A stretch of DNA of 64,000 nucleotides from Brachyspira pilosicoli (lineage in GTDB: Bacteria > Spirochaetota > Brachyspiria > Brachyspirales > Brachyspiraceae): contig NZ_JAWLPU010000003.1 of the NCBI RefSeq assembly GCF_036997485.1, positions 1 to 64,000 of the forward strand, given 5' to 3'. This document shows, one piece after another, positions 5,553 through 38,096 of this stretch. The position numbers were made by a program, and so were the translations under genes. The notes under the pieces are model-generated. The model had not been told where the DNA came from. It searched no databases and saw only the letters and a list, made by a program, of their open reading frames with translations. Within the stretch, counting starts at the first letter, position 1. Each line of letters starts with the position of its first letter.

Positions 5553-7091
5553 TTATATCATCCTCTTTAATATTTTTGATTGAAAATAAGCAACATCTTT
5601 TGCCTGAACAGAATCATTTCCCAATTTTTTACTAGCCTCTAAAAAACTTTTTGACTGCAATATTAATGCTAACTTTGAAGCTTCAAGCATTTGTAATTTT
5701 CTTGCTAAAAAAGCTCCGACAAAACCAGCTAATACATCTCCCATTCCTGCTTTACCCATAGAAACTGTAGGGTTATAATTTATATATATATCATCATCAT
5801 TCATCAAAAAGCTAACAGCATCTTTTAATATTATATTTGCTTTAGTAATTTCCCTAAACTTTTGTAATGCATTATAAGGATTAGTTAAAGCTTCTATATG
5901 ATTAATACCTGTAAGCTTTTCAAACTCATAAATATGCGGAGTAAGTAAAAAGTTATTACCCAATTCTGATAAAGTACTTTGAAACATCAAATATAAAGCA
6001 TCAGCATCTACAACTGTAGGAATGTTTATTTGTTTTAATATAGAATTAATAAAAACCTCTGTAGACATATCTCTGCCAATACCAGAGCCTATTATACAAG
6101 CGTCACTCTTATTTATATCTTCTGCAATATATAAATCATCTGCTGTAAAACATTTATTATCATATTCTCCAACGCCTATAACAACAATTTCAGGCATATC
6201 TATCATTACAGCATTTCTAACAGTTTCTAATATAGCCTTAGGAACATAAAGTCTAATATATCCAACTCCGCTCCTATAAGCTGCCTTTGCAGATAATATA
6301 CAAGCTCCTATATATTCATAACTTCCAGCTACTATAGCAAGCTTTCCCTGTTCCCTCTTAGAATAAAAAGCATTTCTTACTATTTCTATATTCTCATCAA
6401 AATCTATTAAATTAGCAACATAAGGAGCTTCATTTAATATATTCTCTGGAAATATTGATTTTATTATAAATAACTCACCAATATATTCCCTCGTGTTATA
6501 TAAAAACATAATGTCCTTAGCAAAACATACAGTATAAGTTTCATCTGCTTTAAAACAACTATTGGAATTATCATCAATCTTTGAATATAGCCCAGAAGGT
6601 ATATCTATAGCTATTCTTATAATATTTAAATCATTTAAACTATCTACTAAAAGTTTCTGTATTCCGCCTAAAGGTCTTCTTCCCCCTGTACCAAATAATG
6701 AATCTAAAACTATATCGTTTTCATCTATCAAATTAATAGCTTCATAAACATTCTCTTCGCTGCCTAAATACTTTATTTCAACATTCATAGATTTTAATAT
6801 ATTGAAATTAGCATAAGTATCTTTATTAACTTTATCTAAATTACCAGTAATATAAACATTGACATTATATCCGTTTTTTATTAAATATCTCGCAATAGCA
6901 AATCCATCTCCTCCATTGCCTCCAACAGAGGAAAATATATGTACAAAATGATTATTAAGTGTTTCAGTATATCTCTCTTCCAATAAGTTAAATATATCTA
7001 AAGCTACATGCTCCATTAAAAGTATAGAAGGAATTTTTTCAGTTGTTTTTTTATCTATACTTATTAGCTCTTCTGTTGTTACTACCTTCAT
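5553..7091 (-). CDS. nnr: Nnr: bifunctional NAD(P)HX epimerase / ADP-dependent dehydratase
   Basis: Nnr repairs hydrated NAD(P)H. The N-terminal YjeF_N domain (about 1-215) epimerises R- to S-NAD(P)HX, and the C-terminal carbohydrate-kinase-like domain (about 225-510) removes the water using ADP. Seen here: the N-domain loop VGGNGGDGFAIA near residue 55 and the C-domain signature KAGMGDVLAGF near residue 455. The total of 512 residues matches the fused enzyme of other bacteria. AAGGA lies just upstream of the ATG. The gene is second in a minus-strand unit, 23 bp after the HU/LysM gene and 1 nt before the small membrane protein. Confidence 0.95.
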   Translation of the reverse strand: MKVVTTEELISIDKKTTEKIPSILLMEHVALDIFNLLEERYTETLNNHFVHIFSSVGGNGGDGFAIARYLIKNGYNVNVYITGNLDKVNKDTYANFNILKSMNVEIKYLGSEENVYEAINLIDENDIVLDSLFGTGGRRPLGGIQKLLVDSLNDLNIIRIAIDIPSGLYSKIDDNSNSCFKADETYTVCFAKDIMFLYNTREYIGELFIIKSIFPENILNEAPYVANLIDFDENIEIVRNAFYSKREQGKLAIVAGSYEYIGACILSAKAAYRSGVGYIRLYVPKAILETVRNAVMIDMPEIVVIGVGEYDNKCFTADDLYIAEDINKSDACIIGSGIGRDMSTEVFINSILKQINIPTVVDADALYLMFQSTLSELGNNFLLTPHIYEFEKLTGINHIEALTNPYNALQKFREITKANIILKDAVSFLMNDDDIYINYNPTVSMGKAGMGDVLAGFVGAFLARKLQMLEASKLALILQSKSFLEASKKLGNDSVQAKDVAYFQSKILKRMI

Positions 7092-7114
7092 TTAGATATC
7101 CTTATTTTTTTATG

Positions 7115-8773
7115 TTATTTTCTATATTTTGTATTATCTTTAATTATTTCTATCAATGAAGATATAGGATTTTTAGTAACTTTATTATATCTGTTCATTC
7201 TATATAATAGATTATTAATTCCAGAATGTTCTGATAATATTTTTGTATAAGTTTCATTAGATATTGAATTAGTGTTATCCTTAAAAACTCTTATATCATA
7301 ATAAGCAGCTAATTTTAATGACCACATAGCATGGTTATATTTTTTTCCGCCTTGTAAAATAGGATAAACTTTAATAAAAGATTTTGATAAGCTATTTTCA
7401 AATGCTATCAAATCATCTACATTGCAAAATTTGGGTACCAATTTATAAGTTATTTTACTGCCTTTTTTTATTGGTGTAATTATATCATATTTGTTATAAG
7501 CAGATATGATAGGCCAGTAAGTGGAATTCCCATAAATCTCTTTAGCTATGTCCCAATAATACATATTATTTGATACTGTATAAGATGAACTTACAGTATT
7601 AACATTTGTAAAATATCCGTTTACTATATCATATAATTTTTGATTATCTACATTGCTGCTTCCATTATTATTAACATTCAAAAGAAGCATAATGATAACA
7701 GCGATAATAACAACTATTGCTGCTGCTATTTTTAATATAACAAAATTGCTTTTTGTTTCTTTTTTTTCTTTGACTTGCTTTATTTCTTTTTTTTGCTTAT
7801 TAGCTTTTATTTGTTTATCAGAAATATTTGCCATGTCTAATAATTCATCTTTACTATAATCTTTCATTTCTAATTTATTTTCATTAGAAATAGCTGCTTT
7901 TTCATTAAAGAATTTATTATTAACTCTATTAATAAAAACCTCATCAGCATTAAAACCAACATAACCTTTATTGTAGAAAAAAGTTCCAAAATTATCTATA
8001 CAAATACTTTCGTTATGATCAACTAAGTGTCTAATATTTTCAAATACCGCTTCAAAAAATTTCTTCTTTTCTAATCTATCATCAACATTATCAACCTTTG
8101 ATATTATGCTGTAAAGCGAAGCATCAAACCCCATATCAGCACTTCTAAAAGCTATATTATAATTCTTATCAATAAATATATTTCCAACTTCATAAATAAA
8201 AAATATTTTCTTTTCTAATACCAAAGAAGCAATATTTTCAAATAGATTGTTAATTTCATCTTTAATAAACTTTCTGCTTAAATTCTTTTTAGCTGAGCAT
8301 AATCTATCTATTAGTTTATTATATCCCAAATATTTATTTTTAATATTTTGAATCTTCATTTCAACTAAATAAACTAAAGTTCTATCTTTTTCAAAGTTTA
8401 CATAACCATCATCATGGAAAAAAGTGCCGAAATTTTCTATGTATACTTTCTCTCCATTATCAACTAAATGTCTGATATTTTCAAAAATCATCTCATATAA
8501 TTTCTTTTTAATGGCTCTATTTTTTACAGTATCATATTTTTCTGTTATAGTATTCAAAGAAGCATCGAAAGACATATCAGCACTTCTAAACATAATATTA
8601 TAATTTTTATCTAAATATATATACCCCAATTCATACATATAAAAAACTTTATTATTTAAAACATATGGAGTAATACTAGAAAATAATTCATTGATAAGTT
8701 TATTAATTTCAGTTTTTGTGGTTCTTAATCTTGAAGACAATCTCTCAATTAATGTATTATTTGTACTAAACAT
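7115..8773 (-). CDS. Four HU-like modules + transmembrane helix + LysM-like domain
   Basis: This 552-residue protein has an unusual layout. Two long repeats (about 8-140 and 150-287) each contain two HU/IHF-like modules. The second module of each pair reads like HU (ENIRHLVDNGE..., then an ENFGTFF or DNFGTFF strand), and the first shares FRSADM.FDASL with its counterpart. A Lys-rich linker (about 318-342) leads to a transmembrane helix (about 345-366). A LysM-like stretch (about 398-447: YTVSNNMYYWDIAKEIYGN...) follows, then a helical tail. The orientation would put the HU-like part in the cytoplasm and LysM outside, near peptidoglycan. Whether it binds DNA is not shown. It heads the unit with nnr. 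Similar HU-plus-wall-domain fusions are known in Bacteroidetes, but the family assignment here is inference from pattern. Confidence 0.75.
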   Translation of the reverse strand: MFSTNNTLIERLSSRLRTTKTEINKLINELFSSITPYVLNNKVFYMYELGYIYLDKNYNIMFRSADMSFDASLNTITEKYDTVKNRAIKKKLYEMIFENIRHLVDNGEKVYIENFGTFFHDDGYVNFEKDRTLVYLVEMKIQNIKNKYLGYNKLIDRLCSAKKNLSRKFIKDEINNLFENIASLVLEKKIFFIYEVGNIFIDKNYNIAFRSADMGFDASLYSIISKVDNVDDRLEKKKFFEAVFENIRHLVDHNESICIDNFGTFFYNKGYVGFNADEVFINRVNNKFFNEKAAISNENKLEMKDYSKDELLDMANISDKQIKANKQKKEIKQVKEKKETKSNFVILKIAAAIVVIIAVIIMLLLNVNNNGSSNVDNQKLYDIVNGYFTNVNTVSSSYTVSNNMYYWDIAKEIYGNSTYWPIISAYNKYDIITPIKKGSKITYKLVPKFCNVDDLIAFENSLSKSFIKVYPILQGGKKYNHAMWSLKLAAYYDIRVFKDNTNSISNETYTKILSEHSGINNLLYRMNRYNKVTKNPISSLIEIIKDNTKYRK

Positions 8774-29320: not shown

Positions 29321-29440
29321 TTGTTTATTTCCTAGTTAATTGAAATTAGATTATAATGTATAATATAAGTATTTGCAAATGTTTTAATGATAATTCAAAT
29401 ATTAGTCGATACTATTAGAAAATATTTTAGGAAAATTGGA

Positions 29441-29971
29441 ATGCAAAAATTATTTGGTACTTTTTTATTATTATTTTTTACACTCTCTTGTGCATCAAAT
29501 ATGAAGACAGCTAATAGAAATTATAATAATATATGGATAAAAAAGGTAAAAGGAAAGAGGGTAGTTGCTCCAAATGGATATTTATATACTTTTTTAGATA
29601 ATGGAGATGTAGAATATAGTTTATTTGGAAAAAAACGAGGTGTTGGTAAGTTTGATTATGCAGAGAGTGAAACTAATGCCTACTATTATGAAGTTACACC
29701 TTTAAAAAAAGTTGTACGTAATGTAAGAACTATTTCAGAGATTCCTAATAAAAAGGTAAATATGTATGTAAGTTTTATTCTAAAGGGTGATAATATATTA
29801 ATGACTTCAGATTATAATAGAGCGTATTATAATAGATTAAATACTTGGAATAAAAATAATTTAAATCTATATGGTTTTCTTCGTGAAGGTAAGGATATAA
29901 CTGACTATCCTATACCAAATCCTGATGAGGTAGAGTTTAATAAACCTATTAATTTTGGCGTATTAAGATAA
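29441..29971 (+). CDS. Predicted lipoprotein, unknown
   Basis: From the ATG at 29441 (AGGA 8 nt upstream) the product has 176 residues with a hydrophobic leader and a lipobox ending at TLSC (about residue 17). An earlier in-frame ATG at 29387 would bury this signal in the protein and has no ribosome site, so I reject it. The mature part is Asn/Tyr/Lys-rich and shows a short repeat-like WIKKVKGKRVVAPNGYLYTF segment near the start, as in small lipocalin-like or WxxD-type surface domains, but I recognise no family. Likely anchored to a membrane, facing the periplasm or surface. Confidence 0.8.
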   Translation: MQKLFGTFLLLFFTLSCASNMKTANRNYNNIWIKKVKGKRVVAPNGYLYTFLDNGDVEYSLFGKKRGVGKFDYAESETNAYYYEVTPLKKVVRNVRTISEIPNKKVNMYVSFILKGDNILMTSDYNRAYYNRLNTWNKNNLNLYGFLREGKDITDYPIPNPDEVEFNKPINFGVLR

Positions 29972-31639: not shown

Positions 31640-32179
31640 TTAATTATTAAACTCATTATTATAATATTCTATAGTGTCAATCATTGCTTTAACTTGTGAT
31701 GATGATAATATAAACTCTTGATATTCTCTTCCAGATATTCTTAAACCAACTTCTTTGGCATTAGTAAGTATTCTATAAAGCTCTTTTAATTCTGTATCAC
31801 TAATTTTTATTATAGCATTTTCCAAACAATTTACCTGACTTGGTATATATGCATATTCATTAATTACAGCAGCAGTTGTAGATATATTTCTTGAAACATT
31901 TGTTAGGGTAAATGTTATTTTATCATAAGTTTTAGCATCAAATATATATGCAGTGTTGGCGTAAATAAAATTAGGCATAGCTTTAGTTCCTATATATAGC
32001 CACCAAGTAATTTCTTTATTATTGTTTATTTGAAAATATAATTTAGCTCCGTATTCATAATATTCATCTGCATAAGTATAGGTTTGTATGCCTGTGAGTT
32101 TATCGTCTTTTATTTTAAGCGAATAATTAGCACATGATATGCTCACAAATAATAATGCAATAAATAAAACTTTTCTCAT
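31640..32179 (-). CDS. Predicted lipoprotein, unknown; possible leaderless mRNA
   Basis: The 179-residue product has an N-terminal leader and lipobox SISC (Cys near 16), so it is probably a lipoprotein. The mature part is mixed alpha/beta with no family I know. The gene has no Shine-Dalgarno sequence. Instead a TATAAT box ends 6 nt before the ATG (see the promoter entry), which would put the transcript start at or next to the start codon. The downstream end meets repeat copy 4. Confidence 0.78.
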   Translation of the reverse strand: MRKVLFIALLFVSISCANYSLKIKDDKLTGIQTYTYADEYYEYGAKLYFQINNNKEITWWLYIGTKAMPNFIYANTAYIFDAKTYDKITFTLTNVSRNISTTAAVINEYAYIPSQVNCLENAIIKISDTELKELYRILTNAKEVGLRISGREYQEFILSSSQVKAMIDTIEYYNNEFNN

Positions 32180-32983: not shown

Positions 32984-33400
32984 TTATTCTCCAATAATCT
33001 TGATGAGCACTCTTTTATTTCTCATGCCGTCATATTCACCGTAAAAAACCTGCTCCCAAGTACCAAAATCTAATTTGCCATTAGTAACAGCCACAACAAC
33101 CTCTCTGCCCATAATCTGTCTTTTTAAATGAGCGTCAGCATTATCTTCGTATCCATTATGCCTATATTGATTATGAGGTTTCTCTGGAGCCAATTTCTCA
33201 AGCCAAACTTCAAAATCATTATGAAGCCCACCCTCATCATCATTAATAAATACACTAGCAGTAATATTCATAGCATTGCATAAAATCAATCCCTCTTTTA
33301 TGCCGCTTTCATCTAAGCACTTTTGTACTTCATTAGTGATATTAATATATCCTCTTCTCTTTGGATAATTTATTTCTAAAACCTTTCTATATGATTTCAT
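32984..33400 (-). CDS. YjbQ (UPF0047) family protein
   Basis: The 138-residue protein carries the family landmarks: the N-terminal beta strands with ITNEVQ, the [10 protein letters not shown] segment, the [12 protein letters not shown] His-containing loop, and the C-terminal [13 protein letters not shown]. Family members have weak thiamine-phosphate synthase activity in vitro, and their true role is unsettled. It is first in a two-gene minus-strand unit with the HAD phosphatase. The 152-bp divergent gap to the next gene contains that gene's promoter. Confidence 0.92.
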
Positions 33401-33490: not shown

Positions 33491-33518
33491 TTGAAATAAT
33501 TTTTTTATATGATATAAT
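33491..33518 (+). promoter_or_regulatory. Probable promoter of the ribosomal-type / Nuo-like unit
   Basis: TTGAAA (33491-33496), 16-nt spacer, TATAAT (33513-33518), 34 nt before the 29-residue gene. I see no terminator between that gene and the NuoE-like gene. Confidence 0.65.
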
Positions 33519-33552: not shown

Positions 33553-33642
33553 ATGCCTTCAGGAAGAAAAAGACTTCGTCAAAAGATGGCTACGCATAAA
33601 CGCAAAAAACGTTTACGCAAAAATAGGCATAAAAAGAAATAA
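33553..33642 (+). CDS. 29-residue bS22/mS38-type (AURKAIP1/COX24) ribosomal protein
   Basis: This short gene, below usual length cut-offs, codes 29 residues starting MPSGRKRLRQKMATHKR, with more than half Lys/Arg. It closely matches the bacterial AURKAIP1/COX24-domain proteins (PSGKKRKRHKMATHKRKKR type); that family includes mitochondrial mS38 and mycobacterial bS22, short basic peptides of the small ribosomal subunit. GGGAG lies 5 nt before the ATG, and a promoter is at 33491-33518. The coding call is strong on motif and ribosome site. That it sits in the ribosome is inferred from the family. Confidence 0.9.
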   Translation: MPSGRKRLRQKMATHKRKKRLRKNRHKKK

Positions 33643-33674: not shown

Positions 33675-33947
33675 ATGCAAAAGGACGAGATAAAAACCGT
33701 TATAGAAGTATGTGTAGGGCTTCATTGTTCTATGAAGGGGTCGTATGCTCTTTTGGAATCAATTAGAGCCCATTATGATTTGAAAATCGGCATTCCTTCT
33801 TATGACGGTATGCTCCTTAAAGAGGTGGAATGTATGCATAATTGTAATAATGCCATTTCTGTTTTAATTAACGGCATAGAATGCAATGATTCTTCTTTTG
33901 GCAGCGTTATTAAGTATATAGAAGCTGTACATGTTAAAGTAAGATGA
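33675..33947 (+). CDS. NuoE-like [2Fe-2S] thioredoxin-fold protein, short form
   Basis: The 90-residue protein matches only the C-terminal [2Fe-2S] half of the complex I 24-kDa subunit (usual length about 160). The four cluster Cys are kept in the family spacing: C13-x4-C18 and C53-x3-C57. The N-terminal helical part that normally docks on NuoF is missing. AGAG lies upstream of the ATG. Its last codons overlap the NuoF-like start by 4 nt (ATGA). With the next two genes it forms a NuoE-F-G-like set without any membrane subunit nearby. A role as an electron carrier is inference. Confidence 0.88.
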   Translation: MQKDEIKTVIEVCVGLHCSMKGSYALLESIRAHYDLKIGIPSYDGMLLKEVECMHNCNNAISVLINGIECNDSSFGSVIKYIEAVHVKVR

Positions 33948-35083
33948 AAAAATTTATTCTATATAATGATTATGCTACAAAAAATATCAAAGATTATAAA
34001 GACAATTTCGGTGATTATCTCTACACCACTATAAATGAATATGATGCTTTGCTTAATAACTTAAAAGTTGCTAACATATTCACAAGAGATATATATAAAA
34101 AATCTTTATATAGTATTCTATCTGATAAAAATAATAATTATAATCAATCTTTAATTATAAATGCCTATTCTTTTGACTATTTGGTATTTAAAGACAAATT
34201 CTTTATAAATAACAATCCTCATCTTATTTTAGATTCTGCTATATTAATTGCCAAAATTTTAAATATAAAAAACATAGATATTTTAATTAGAAGCTATTAT
34301 GATAAGGAAATATTAATCAATGCAATAGTAGAGGCAGAAGATTTATACAAAATTGAAAGCGAAATAACTATAAATATCTATGATGAAAATAACTATAGAG
34401 AAAATATAAGTATTTATTTTCTTGAAAGACAAAAATATGTATTAGATTTAGAAACTGTTATACAATTTGGATATTTTGCTCATATGGGATTAGAAAATTT
34501 CTCTAAGTATGGAAATGATGATAATAAAGGCACATGTTTAATTTCTTTTTCTGGAGATATACCAAATGTAGATTTATATGAATTTCAATTTGGTTCTTCA
34601 TTTAATGAAATAATAAAAAAGAGCGGATATATTTCTTATAACAATGATATAAAATGCATATTTACTAATGGTTTTCTAAACTCACCTACTACTTTAGAGA
34701 GTTTAAGCAGTAAGAGTTTATCATATGATGATATAAATATTGGAAATGGGGGGATATGTTTTATAGCAGAGAATAGATGTATGCTTAGAGTTGTTATGAA
34801 GATTATTCAGTTTGCTAAGAGTATTTCTTGTACAAACTGTATGCCTTGTAATTATGGTTTTAATTTATGCGAATATTATTTAAACAAAATTATATTAGGA
34901 AAATCTAATAGTAATGATTATAAGAATTTAGTGAATACTGTAGAGATGATTATTAAAGGCTCTTCTTGTTTATATATATATAATATAGCAAAATGCATAA
35001 TAGACACTATAAAAATGTTTGAATATGAGTTTATATATGCTTTAGAAAAAAAGATAACTCTTTATAGTTTTATTAATAAATAA
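33944..35083 (+). CDS. NuoF-like protein lacking FMN/NADH signatures
   Basis: A 379-residue homologue of the complex I 51-kDa subunit (usual length about 420-440). The fold landmarks align well: the VFKDK..., NNPHLILDSA and IDILIRSYYD segments, the SFSGDI...LYEF segment, and the FeS motif with Cys at 296, 299, 302 and 342. The flavin/NADH parts are gone: the GRGGAGFPTG loop reads as unrelated sequence, NADESEPG reads NAYSFDYL, and the AYICGEETAL stretch is deleted (about 45 residues). So an Fe-S cluster is likely kept, but NADH oxidation in the usual way is not expected. It overlaps the NuoE-like gene and lies 18 bp before the NuoG-like gene. Confidence 0.85.
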   Translation: MKKFILYNDYATKNIKDYKDNFGDYLYTTINEYDALLNNLKVANIFTRDIYKKSLYSILSDKNNNYNQSLIINAYSFDYLVFKDKFFINNNPHLILDSAILIAKILNIKNIDILIRSYYDKEILINAIVEAEDLYKIESEITINIYDENNYRENISIYFLERQKYVLDLETVIQFGYFAHMGLENFSKYGNDDNKGTCLISFSGDIPNVDLYEFQFGSSFNEIIKKSGYISYNNDIKCIFTNGFLNSPTTLESLSSKSLSYDDINIGNGGICFIAENRCMLRVVMKIIQFAKSISCTNCMPCNYGFNLCEYYLNKIILGKSNSNDYKNLVNTVEMIIKGSSCLYIYNIAKCIIDTIKMFEYEFIYALEKKITLYSFINK

Positions 35084-35101
35084 GGTAATTATAAATATAT
35101 T

Positions 35102-36463
35102 ATGATAGTAAGATTTAATTTTAATGGACGAGAGATATCATCACAAAGCGGATATACAATATTAAAAGCTTTATCATATATTGGCATAGATATAGCGCAT
35201 TTATGTTATTATAAATTGGATAGAATAAAAGGTTTTGAAGAAGATAGTGAAAATGATTTACTTAGATGCAAACTTTGTTTGGTCAAAGTGAAAAAGAAAA
35301 ATGAAGATGAATATAGTTTTAAGTATGCTTGTAATGAGGTAATTGAAAATGGAATGGAGGTTATAAGCAATGATGAAGAGGTTATCGAATATAGAAAATC
35401 TTTGCTTAGGGCTATACTTTATATGCATAAACCATTTTGTGATAAATGCAGTAGTTATTACAATTGCAGATTAAAAAAATATATAGACTTTTATCAATTA
35501 AAAATAGAAAGATTTGACGGAGATAATGATTCAAAATTAAAAGATATAAAAAATATTGTAGATGGTTTAAATTTAGATAAAAATATAAAAATTGATTATG
35601 ATAAATGCATTAATTGCGGAGTTTGTGATAGATATAAGATAATATCTGGTTATAAAAGTATGATAGTTGATTTATGTCCTACTAAGGTGTTTAGAGTTGA
35701 TAGGAAAATTGATAATAACGATGAGCAAATTGAATATAAAAAAATAAACAGCTTTTGTATAGGATGCAACGAACTTTGCGAATGCAGTTATTTTTGTGAT
35801 GATAAAAGGGTAATAGATATACAATCACCAGAATTAAAAAAATATGGTATATGCGATTTCGGAAGAAATATGCTTTATTATTCAGATAAAACTTTTGAAT
35901 ATCCTTTAATAAACGGCATAGAAGATGATTTTAACAGGGCTAAAGATCTATTTCATAAGTTTTTAGAAGAAACAAACAAAAAAGATGTTTTAGCAATTTC
36001 TTCCACTCTTTATCCTATTGAAGATTTGGAAGCTTTTAATGATTTTATATATTCACTAGGCATTACAAACTTTATATATAAAAAAAATATAATGAGTACA
36101 AACTCAAATGTTGTTAGGGAAAACTATACTAATATTAATAAATATTCGTTGAAGAATTACAAATATACTTTAACTGAAACAGATAAAATTTTTAATAAGT
36201 TTATAATATTAGAAGACCCTTTATTTGAAATGGATAATATGATGGATTTTATACAGCAAAACAGAAGAAATTATATAGTATTTACTTCTTATCAATCTAT
36301 TTTAGCATATAATTCTTATTTAGCTTTTCCTATTGCGGGATTTGGAGAGTTTGATGGTGAGTATATAGATTCACATGGTAAGAATAAATATATTAAAAGT
36401 TTTTTAGAAAAAAATAAAAATAGATTAGAGTTCAAGAATTTAATAAAATATTTGTATTTGTAA
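35102..36463 (+). CDS. NuoG-like multi-cluster Fe-S protein, truncated
   Basis: The 453-residue protein has the N-terminal electron-wire of complex I NuoG or Fe-hydrogenase HndD. A [2Fe-2S] ferredoxin domain uses C35, C56, C59 and C77. A His-Cys [4Fe-4S] site is at H109, C113, C116 and C122. A further [4Fe-4S] site has C169, C172, C175 and the CP Cys C192. A molybdopterin-type [4Fe-4S] site (CxxCxxxC at 219, 222, 226, then C251) follows. The remaining 200 residues are a shortened remnant of the molybdopterin domain. NuoG itself is usually 680-900 residues. All cluster ligands are intact while the NuoF-like partner has lost its flavin site. No hydrogenase H-cluster motif is present. Only a weak ribosome site is visible. 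Confidence 0.86.
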   Translation: MIVRFNFNGREISSQSGYTILKALSYIGIDIAHLCYYKLDRIKGFEEDSENDLLRCKLCLVKVKKKNEDEYSFKYACNEVIENGMEVISNDEEVIEYRKSLLRAILYMHKPFCDKCSSYYNCRLKKYIDFYQLKIERFDGDNDSKLKDIKNIVDGLNLDKNIKIDYDKCINCGVCDRYKIISGYKSMIVDLCPTKVFRVDRKIDNNDEQIEYKKINSFCIGCNELCECSYFCDDKRVIDIQSPELKKYGICDFGRNMLYYSDKTFEYPLINGIEDDFNRAKDLFHKFLEETNKKDVLAISSTLYPIEDLEAFNDFIYSLGITNFIYKKNIMSTNSNVVRENYTNINKYSLKNYKYTLTETDKIFNKFIILEDPLFEMDNMMDFIQQNRRNYIVFTSYQSILAYNSYLAFPIAGFGEFDGEYIDSHGKNKYIKSFLEKNKNRLEFKNLIKYLYL

Positions 36464-36527
36464 AAAAATATTATATAATATATATGTGGGTTTATGATTG
36501 AGCTTTGTTATATAAAGGAGTTTATTA

Positions 36528-38096
36528 ATGGTAAATTCGAGATATAATATACTCTCTAATCTTAAAGATAAAACTTATGATCTTTTAATTATAGGCGGCG
36601 GGGTAATAGGTGCTACCATCGCCATGAAAACAGCAAGAGTAGGTATTTCGACTCTTCTCGTAGAAAAACATGATTTCTCCTTTGGCTCATCTTCCAGAAC
36701 TTCAAAAATGCTCACAGGCGGCTTTACTGATTTGACTGCCCATAACTTTATATCTACAGTTTTTAAAGTTAGAGAGAGAAATAATCTTATAAACAAATCT
36801 TCTGCTTCTGACTTTGGAATATTATATCCTATATATTTTAGCGGCGGTCAGAATGCTAATTCTGGTTTAATAAGAAATGAATTAAAAGCTAATATATATG
36901 ATTTGATGTCAATTTTTGGAAAAACTAAAAAACATAAATCTCATAGCAGAAACTCTGTATTAGAAACTTTGCCTGATTTGAATAATAATGATGTAATAGG
37001 AGCTACAGAGTTCTTTGAAGGCAAAATAGATGACAGCAGATATGTTTTAGAATTATTACTAAAAGCTAAAGAATATGGTGCTGATATACTTAATTATGCC
37101 GAAGTAAAAGCTTTTGATTATGATGAAAATAAAATTAATAGAACTATACTTTCAGATAAAATAAAAGGCAGGATTTATGAAATAAGCGCTAAAAAAATAT
37201 TAGTTGCAGCCGGAGCTTGGGGAGACAGTATAGTATCCATGCTTCCAAAATCTAATTTTACAGATAAAGTAAAATATGTAAAAGCTACTAATTTTATAGT
37301 TGATAGCAATATTATTCATATAAATAAATCTGTTGTCTTACCAAAAATAAAAGACAGACCTAATGTTTTCTTAACAAAGTGGAAAGATATGACAATAATA
37401 GGTCCTGTTGTAAAAAAGTATACAGGTAATTTAGATTGTATATATTCAACAAGCGATGAGATAGAATATTTACTTGATATTTATAATACTTATTTTGGCT
37501 CTATAGTTAATAAAAATCATATAGTTACTTCGCAATCTGGAATGATGACTCTTAATCCTATGGATATGAAAATACATTCGCATCCTATTTATGATTTATT
37601 TATGGTTGAGGGTGGAAGCTTTACTATGTCTTCTCATCTTGCCATTAAAACTTTACTTAGAATGTATGGTAAGCCTCATAAATGGTTTAGCGTTAAAAAA
37701 TTCATGAATAACAGAATAGATAAAGCAGTAGATTGGGTGTTAAATAAAGATACTGTTAAGTTTTTAATGGATTATTTCGGCTCTGTAGATATGGTGTTAA
37801 GATTAAACGAATTCTGTAAAGACGATTCTTCTTTGCTTATTTCTGTTGGTCTTGATAATAGAATACCGAGAGGGTTAATAAAATATTTTATTGAAGTAGA
37901 ATATGCACTTCATTTAGATGATATAATGATAAGAAGATTGAGATTTATACTTACCGAAAATGATTGCGGGACATTATTAGCAGAACATATTGCTCAAGAG
38001 ATGGCTTATATTTTAGGTTGGGATAGCAAAAAGGTAGAATACGAAATAAAAAGATATAGAACAGAGATAAAAAGAAATAGGGTTTCTTTGTATTAA
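36528..38096 (+). CDS. GlpD-family FAD oxidoreductase with altered site motif
   Basis: The 522-residue flavoprotein is full length for the aerobic-type glycerol-3-phosphate dehydrogenase family. The FAD-binding GGGVIGA is at residues 23-29, and the C-terminal all-helical DAO_C domain is clear (LDDIMIRRLRFIL ... LGWD). The conserved family stretch after the flavin loop (SSRSTKLIHGGLRYLE in typical GlpD) reads SSRTSKMLTGGFTDL, so the His, the Arg and the Tyr of that motif are replaced. Activity on glycerol 3-phosphate is therefore uncertain. AAGGAG precedes the ATG. It lies 64 bp after the NuoG-like gene on the same strand and may share its message. The neighbouring Fe-S proteins would be natural electron acceptors, but that is inference. 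Confidence 0.82.
   Translation: MVNSRYNILSNLKDKTYDLLIIGGGVIGATIAMKTARVGISTLLVEKHDFSFGSSSRTSKMLTGGFTDLTAHNFISTVFKVRERNNLINKSSASDFGILYPIYFSGGQNANSGLIRNELKANIYDLMSIFGKTKKHKSHSRNSVLETLPDLNNNDVIGATEFFEGKIDDSRYVLELLLKAKEYGADILNYAEVKAFDYDENKINRTILSDKIKGRIYEISAKKILVAAGAWGDSIVSMLPKSNFTDKVKYVKATNFIVDSNIIHINKSVVLPKIKDRPNVFLTKWKDMTIIGPVVKKYTGNLDCIYSTSDEIEYLLDIYNTYFGSIVNKNHIVTSQSGMMTLNPMDMKIHSHPIYDLFMVEGGSFTMSSHLAIKTLLRMYGKPHKWFSVKKFMNNRIDKAVDWVLNKDTVKFLMDYFGSVDMVLRLNEFCKDDSSLLISVGLDNRIPRGLIKYFIEVEYALHLDDIMIRRLRFILTENDCGTLLAEHIAQEMAYILGWDSKKVEYEIKRYRTEIKRNRVSLY

Follow-up and report, generated by a model that had tools for sequence, protein, structure and literature searches.

NuoEFG modules form the entry for NADH (reduced nicotinamide adenine dinucleotide) in complex I, many hydrogenases and formate dehydrogenases. 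According to the available portion of a comparative study of the Bfu family (HydABC, NfnABC, Wor- and Bam-type enzymes), a NuoEFG-type module is combined there, as in the NAD-dependent hydrogenase and formate dehydrogenase, with a varying catalytic subunit, and BfuB homologues, including the non-bifurcating ones, bind NADH (PMC9304861). For GlpD-type proteins, the available portion of another source lists GlpBC, SdhBCD, CoxG and NOX-MOX as known partners and describes the sites for flavin adenine dinucleotide (FAD) and glycerol-3-phosphate (G3P) as conserved across the G3P dehydrogenases compared (PMC11962113). The available part of a further source credits B. hyodysenteriae with glpK, glpF and a respiratory chain, the last without details (PMC2650404). 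Here, we describe an operon from Brachyspira pilosicoli, a member of a genus of gut spirochaetes, found in a window of 64,000 nucleotides (contig NZ_JAWLPU010000003.1, positions 1 to 64,000), in which genes for a short NuoE-like, a NuoF-like and a short NuoG-like protein are followed by a gene for a GlpD-like flavoprotein. The NuoF-like protein lacks the loops that bind flavin mononucleotide (FMN) and NADH, the GlpD-like protein lacks the G3P pocket, and the iron-sulfur ligands and FAD motifs remain. As judged from these sequence features, the operon probably serves to move electrons.

The four genes and their lost active sites

The operon, hereafter the cassette, consists of the following features:

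33675-33947, forward strand: NuoE-like gene; 90 residues, one [2Fe-2S] site (C13/C18/C53/C57), the N-terminal part of a full NuoE missing
33944-35083, forward strand: NuoF-like gene; 379 residues, no FMN/NADH loops, [4Fe-4S] site C296/C299/C302/C342 present
34160-34195, forward strand: position of the former NADE..EPGTFKD flavin/NADH loop in the alignment with control NuoF rows; NuoF-like residues 73-84, NAYSFDYLVFKD
35102-36463, forward strand: NuoG-like gene; short, 453 residues, four cluster sites (C35/56/59/77; H109/C113/116/122; C169/172/175/192; C219/222/226/251)
36528-38096, forward strand: gene for a GlpD/GlpO-like FAD protein; 522 residues, FAD motifs kept, G3P-pocket positions replaced

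The NuoF-like protein was searched for in 61 genomes, including a family set of 29: 26 of Brachyspira (among them G000, the B. pilosicoli genome under study), two of the sister genus g2, and G027 of a third genus. The original prediction, made from the window alone, had noted that the glycine-rich loop, the NADE loop and the GEETAL stretch were absent, and our analysis extends this to the whole group: each of the 28 copies has lost all three or carries other residues in their place. When the 379-residue protein was aligned with NuoF, the loops appeared in every one of four control sequences, of which two are NuoF of complex I type and two of HydB type, and in none of the 13 cassette rows. It had been considered that homologues might retain the loops and that this copy might be a strain defect or a sequencing error; this is excluded, since the same loops are missing from all 28 copies.

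The AlphaFold model of the NuoF-like protein (13 sequences, without ligand) had a mean predicted local distance difference test score (pLDDT) of 84.7 and a predicted template modelling score (pTM) of 0.86. Compared with the 50 chains listed, all of NuoF/HydB type, it gave query-normalised TM scores of 0.76 to 0.85, and the best PDB matches of the protein profile were HydB chains. As modelled, the protein retains the NuoF/HydB fold. Three proteins of this genome match PF01512, one being the NuoF-like protein itself; the other two are encoded by an RnfC-like gene beside RnfD/RnfG-like genes and by a PduS-like gene among microcompartment-type genes (names assigned by eye), so that the genome yielded no further NuoF. 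A second NuoF-type match is absent from seven of the 26 Brachyspira genomes, including this one, which makes the cassette independent of the HydB-type enzyme of the other genomes. NuoH (PF00146), a marker of the complex I membrane arm, was matched in none of the six family genomes tested, G000 among them. Five NuoH matches each were seen in G029 and G030, two genomes of the same order, which may have several membrane complexes of complex I or hydrogenase type.

The second parental site has been lost as consistently. T63, T67, D68, M340 and S364 of the GlpD-like protein stand for H50, R54, Y55, R317 and K354 of Escherichia coli GlpD, which we take, from the E. coli structure, to be the G3P-binding residues. 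None of these five is kept in any of the 28 GlpD-like proteins of the family (27 from the cassette and that of G027). A second alignment of 30 rows gave the same picture: nine family rows lacked all five residues, whereas 21 of 21 others (spirochaetes of several families, E. coli and one verrucomicrobial metagenome-assembled genome, MAG) kept them all. At the FAD site, by contrast, all 30 rows retain G10, G12, G15 and E/D33.

The iron-sulfur ligands reported earlier for the window were recovered almost throughout the group. The four NuoE cysteines are present in 28/28 copies, and the 15 cysteines and His109 of NuoG in 26/26 (the partial NuoG of G001 being left out); in the NuoF-like protein, C299 is found in all 28 copies and C296, C302 and C342 in 27 of them. 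The “molybdopterin-type” site assigned to NuoG exists as an N7-type Cys4 site, but the Pfam Molybdopterin match (E 0.061) lies under the cut-off.

All four open reading frames (ORFs) are intact and on the forward strand, with the GlpD-like gene beginning 64 bp past the NuoG-like gene, as originally described. Their Pfam matches are 2Fe-2S_thioredx for NuoE-like (E 1.5e-9), NADH_4Fe-4S for NuoF-like (E 8.3e-11), Fer2_4 for NuoG-like (E 2.3e-8), and DAO (E 5.5e-30) with DAO_C (E 2.5e-11) for GlpD-like. Complex1_51K is matched by the NuoF-like protein only in part (profile positions 22-84 of 150), with a score of 31.7 bits where the cut-off is 31.2. The NCBIfam models for NuoE, NuoF, NuoG and G3P dehydrogenase/oxidase match the four proteins, every match lying under the curated cut-off.

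Conservation, descent and surroundings

A close match to the NuoF-like protein was found in 25 of the 26 Brachyspira genomes (that of G008 being cut by a contig end) and in both g2 genomes, and a profile of the GlpD-like protein found its counterpart in 28 of the 29 family genomes, with G008 the missing one. The full order E-F-G-GlpD is present in 24/26 Brachyspira and 2/2 g2 genomes (the window and 25 further loci). The two remaining Brachyspira assemblies break within the operon, since the contig of G001 begins inside NuoG and that of G008 breaks inside NuoF; the genes cut off in these two assemblies were not found elsewhere in them. The outer flanks of the operon differ between genomes. The GlpD-like gene is thus a constant neighbour of the NuoEFG-like genes, and the doubt attached to the original prediction, that it might not be conserved there, is removed.

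The ratio of nonsynonymous to synonymous substitution rates (dN/dS; NG86, seven pairs) was 0 to 0.21 for each of the four genes: purifying selection acts on all of them. Among the matches listed from a profile search of 296 genomes of the phylum, full-length NuoG-like ones were confined to Brachyspira (g1) and g2, and none of the others extends beyond residue 266. A scan of named genomes yielded at least 12 loci, three of them from family members, and among the matches listed the GlpD-like protein was 66 and 68% identical to those of a Brachyspira sp. MAG and of B. alvinipulli. Two different NuoE-F copies were seen in G014 (contigs C123 and C20; loci L058 and L059), the second pair at a contig end; the contamination of this assembly is 4%, and the extra pair may be a second copy or reflect a mixed assembly.

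In a NuoF tree built from 8 of the 28 cassette sequences plus 27 further ones, a branch with support of 97/89 sets the cassette, together with the NuoF of G029 and G030, apart from the rest. An origin from the HydB-type NuoF found in the family was rejected, since the tree groups the cassette with NuoF of complex I type. This is a lean and no proof, given the great length of the cassette branch and the flagging of most cassette sequences for residue make-up. The NuoF of G030 comes after a NuoD-like gene (by eye). In the GlpD tree (eight cassette rows and 22 others), the cassette groups with G027 (100/100), and these with G029, G030 and G040 (100/99); a clade of the cassette, G027, G029 and G030 without G040 is not in the best tree and was not rejected (p 0.26). 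The two trees thus set the NuoF-like part next to complex I NuoF, and the GlpD-like part next to canonical GlpD, from other members of the order. The canonical GlpD genes of G029 and G030 lie near a glycerophosphodiesterase-like gene (by eye); a few genes from that of G030 is a 1439-residue ORF (L116, 13848-18167, forward strand) resembling, by eye, activator/dehydratase-type CoA enzymes.

In G027, a pocket-less GlpD-like protein (L092, 8148-9710, reverse strand) occurs without NuoEFG neighbours, and the genome searches gave no close EFG match there. Four stretches of this genome were searched for an EFG remnant: two HydB-type loci matched, and no hit in the stretches with the GlpD-like gene and bS22 had an E-value below 0.03. 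Either pocket loss may have preceded the pairing of the two parts, or G027 may have lost EFG.

The operon is preceded by a short leader gene:

33553-33642, forward strand: gene for ribosomal protein bS22; 29 residues, basic, ending 32 bp before the NuoE-like gene

At 26 of 28 loci, in two genera, the identical 29 residues are encoded 32 to 79 bp ahead of the NuoE-like gene; the two remaining loci have 27 and 152 upstream bases, and one of them, G005, shows a bS22 remnant at the contig start. The peptide aligns end to end with PDB bS22 chains of solved ribosomes (E 1.9e-8 to 5.7e-6), the difference here being that a redox operon follows its gene immediately. Pfam and NCBIfam gave no match, the peptide being too short for either to name. 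bS22 was found in 47 of the 61 genomes; the G027 version, with 97% identity, lies at another location and is followed by a deaminase-like gene (by eye). According to the available part of PMC10618245, bS22 had gone unannotated in Borrelia. By its sequence and position, bS22 is a constant leader gene of the operon, a statement about the gene and not about membership in a complex. A promoter-like site at 33491-33518 (11/12 match) was discarded as evidence, as 41 such sites were found against 43 expected.

The operon is neighboured by genes for a PepSY-like protein (38254-38736, forward strand) and a UPF0047 protein (32984-33400, reverse strand). Three other ORFs of the window, 45013-47793 (forward), 29387-29971 (forward) and 31640-32179 (reverse), of 926, 194 and 179 residues, had no NCBIfam match at E 1e-5.

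Possible function of the operon

The conserved gene order, the loss of both catalytic sites, the retention of cluster ligands and FAD motifs, the purifying selection and the trees are consistent with the four genes encoding one soluble flavo-iron-sulfur electron-transfer complex assembled from two respiratory leftovers, a reading to which we give even chances. The NuoEFG input module of complex I, deprived of its FMN/NADH entry, would be joined to a GlpD-derived FAD subunit deprived of its G3P pocket. This FAD would be the only flavin, replacing FMN and linking two-electron to one-electron steps as a switch. The NuoG-like protein with its four clusters would serve as a wire toward a one-electron partner such as ferredoxin, and the main task of the NuoF-like and NuoE-like proteins would be to keep the assembly together. 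The substrate of the FAD would be other than G3P, and electrons could flow in either direction. That this amounts to a new enzyme of Brachyspiraceae, a four-subunit complex with its only flavin in a borrowed GlpD-type subunit and a reaction of neither parent, is a more tentative proposal, which in our opinion falls somewhat short of an even chance.

Several points weigh against this electron-transfer complex. The former pocket positions differ among family members and therefore give no sign of one new substrate, and the AlphaFold model of the GlpD-like protein (pLDDT 62.8) is too poor for judging the FAD site. The occurrence in G027 means that the GlpD-like protein can exist alone. In G010 (L043, NuoF-like gene at 7001-8149), a 2.0-Mb genome, C296, C302 and C342 are replaced by T, S and S, and the NuoE and NuoG ligands stay; the NuoF cluster of this member is probably gone and the rest retained, which would constitute a natural experiment, and a path through NuoF is thus not needed in every member. 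Finally, the mutual binding of the four products, their bound FAD and clusters, the electron path and the partner are all deduced from sequence. Of the iron-sulfur wire originally predicted, the ligands are largely kept, but a route via NuoF is weakened by G010.

The main rival, ranked after the electron-transfer complex, is a redox- or oxygen-responsive regulator or scaffold, in which FAD and clusters would act as sensors or serve folding, no new catalytic site would have taken the place of either old one, and which would work by shape change or partner binding without turnover. It would account for the loss of both catalytic sites with ligands and FAD motifs remaining, for the variable pocket positions and for the three dispensable NuoF ligands of G010; but six cluster sites under selection are much for a sensor, and no DNA-binding or signalling domain lies above cut-off in the four proteins (Pfam, NCBIfam). 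We consider it unlikely, though still the strongest competitor. Considerably less probable is the plain form of the earlier model, that the GlpD-like protein oxidises G3P and passes the electrons into the NuoEFG-like wire. The GlpD/GlpO family membership by sequence and the constant neighbourhood of the gene speak for it, as do a glycerol kinase above cut-off in 25/29 family genomes, G000 included, and the lack of any further GlpD match in G000 at E 0.001. The glycerol kinases of G006 and G014 are under the cut-off, that of G014 being split over two contig pieces, and among the 29 family genomes G010 and G028 gave no match. Because the five pocket residues, kept in all 21 other rows, are gone from 28/28 family proteins, and because the cassette persists in G010 and G028 without a glycerol kinase match, the donor to the GlpD-like protein is probably not G3P. 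Of the earlier idea that electrons enter elsewhere than at NuoF, namely from the GlpD-like flavoprotein, the missing FMN/NADH entry was confirmed in every copy, but G3P is an unlikely source.

Unconventional binding of FMN and NADH by the NuoF-like protein, which would leave the complex NADH-linked, agrees with the good model confidence of the NuoF fold, including the flavin-domain region, but not one of the 28 copies has any of the three binding stretches in its usual form, and we think it very improbable. A functionless, decaying relic of complex I and GlpD would fit the loss of both known active sites and the lack of NuoH in the six family genomes. This scarcely credible reading was rejected on dN/dS, which is well below 1 in every pair, and on ligand conservation; moreover, the frames are open in cassette members and the order is kept across two genera.

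If the electron-transfer complex is real, it would be an example of the re-use of redox modules after the loss of a respiratory chain. The labels NADH dehydrogenase and glycerol-3-phosphate dehydrogenase would add to metabolic models of Brachyspira two reactions against which the sequences speak, and annotation should be treated with corresponding care.

Comparison with known systems

A description of the operon was not found among the papers listed in searches of the open-access literature (subscription papers and preprints lay outside it), and within the available texts the word “Nuo” is absent from PMC11962113 and “Glycerol” from PMC9304861. The operon is thus a variant of NuoEFG-type modules for which no earlier description was found.

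Its closest counterpart is the NuoEFG input module (N-module) of complex I, with which it shares the same three subunits in the same order and the same cluster ligands, including the N7-type site of NuoG. It differs in the absence of the FMN/NADH loops, in its short NuoE and NuoG and in the attached GlpD-like gene, and, unlike complex I, it occurs in a genome with no NuoH match. In comparison with the Bfu family, the NADH/FMN site of BfuB is gone from the NuoF-like protein, which ends after the N3-type domain and shows one cluster motif in the HydB alignment, whereas BfuB carries clusters B2-B5 (PMC9304861, available portion). With the G3P dehydrogenases and oxidases GlpD, GlpO and GlpA, the GlpD-like protein shares the DAO fold family, the FAD motifs and the DAO_C domain, but it is set apart from them by the replacement of all five residues of the pocket.

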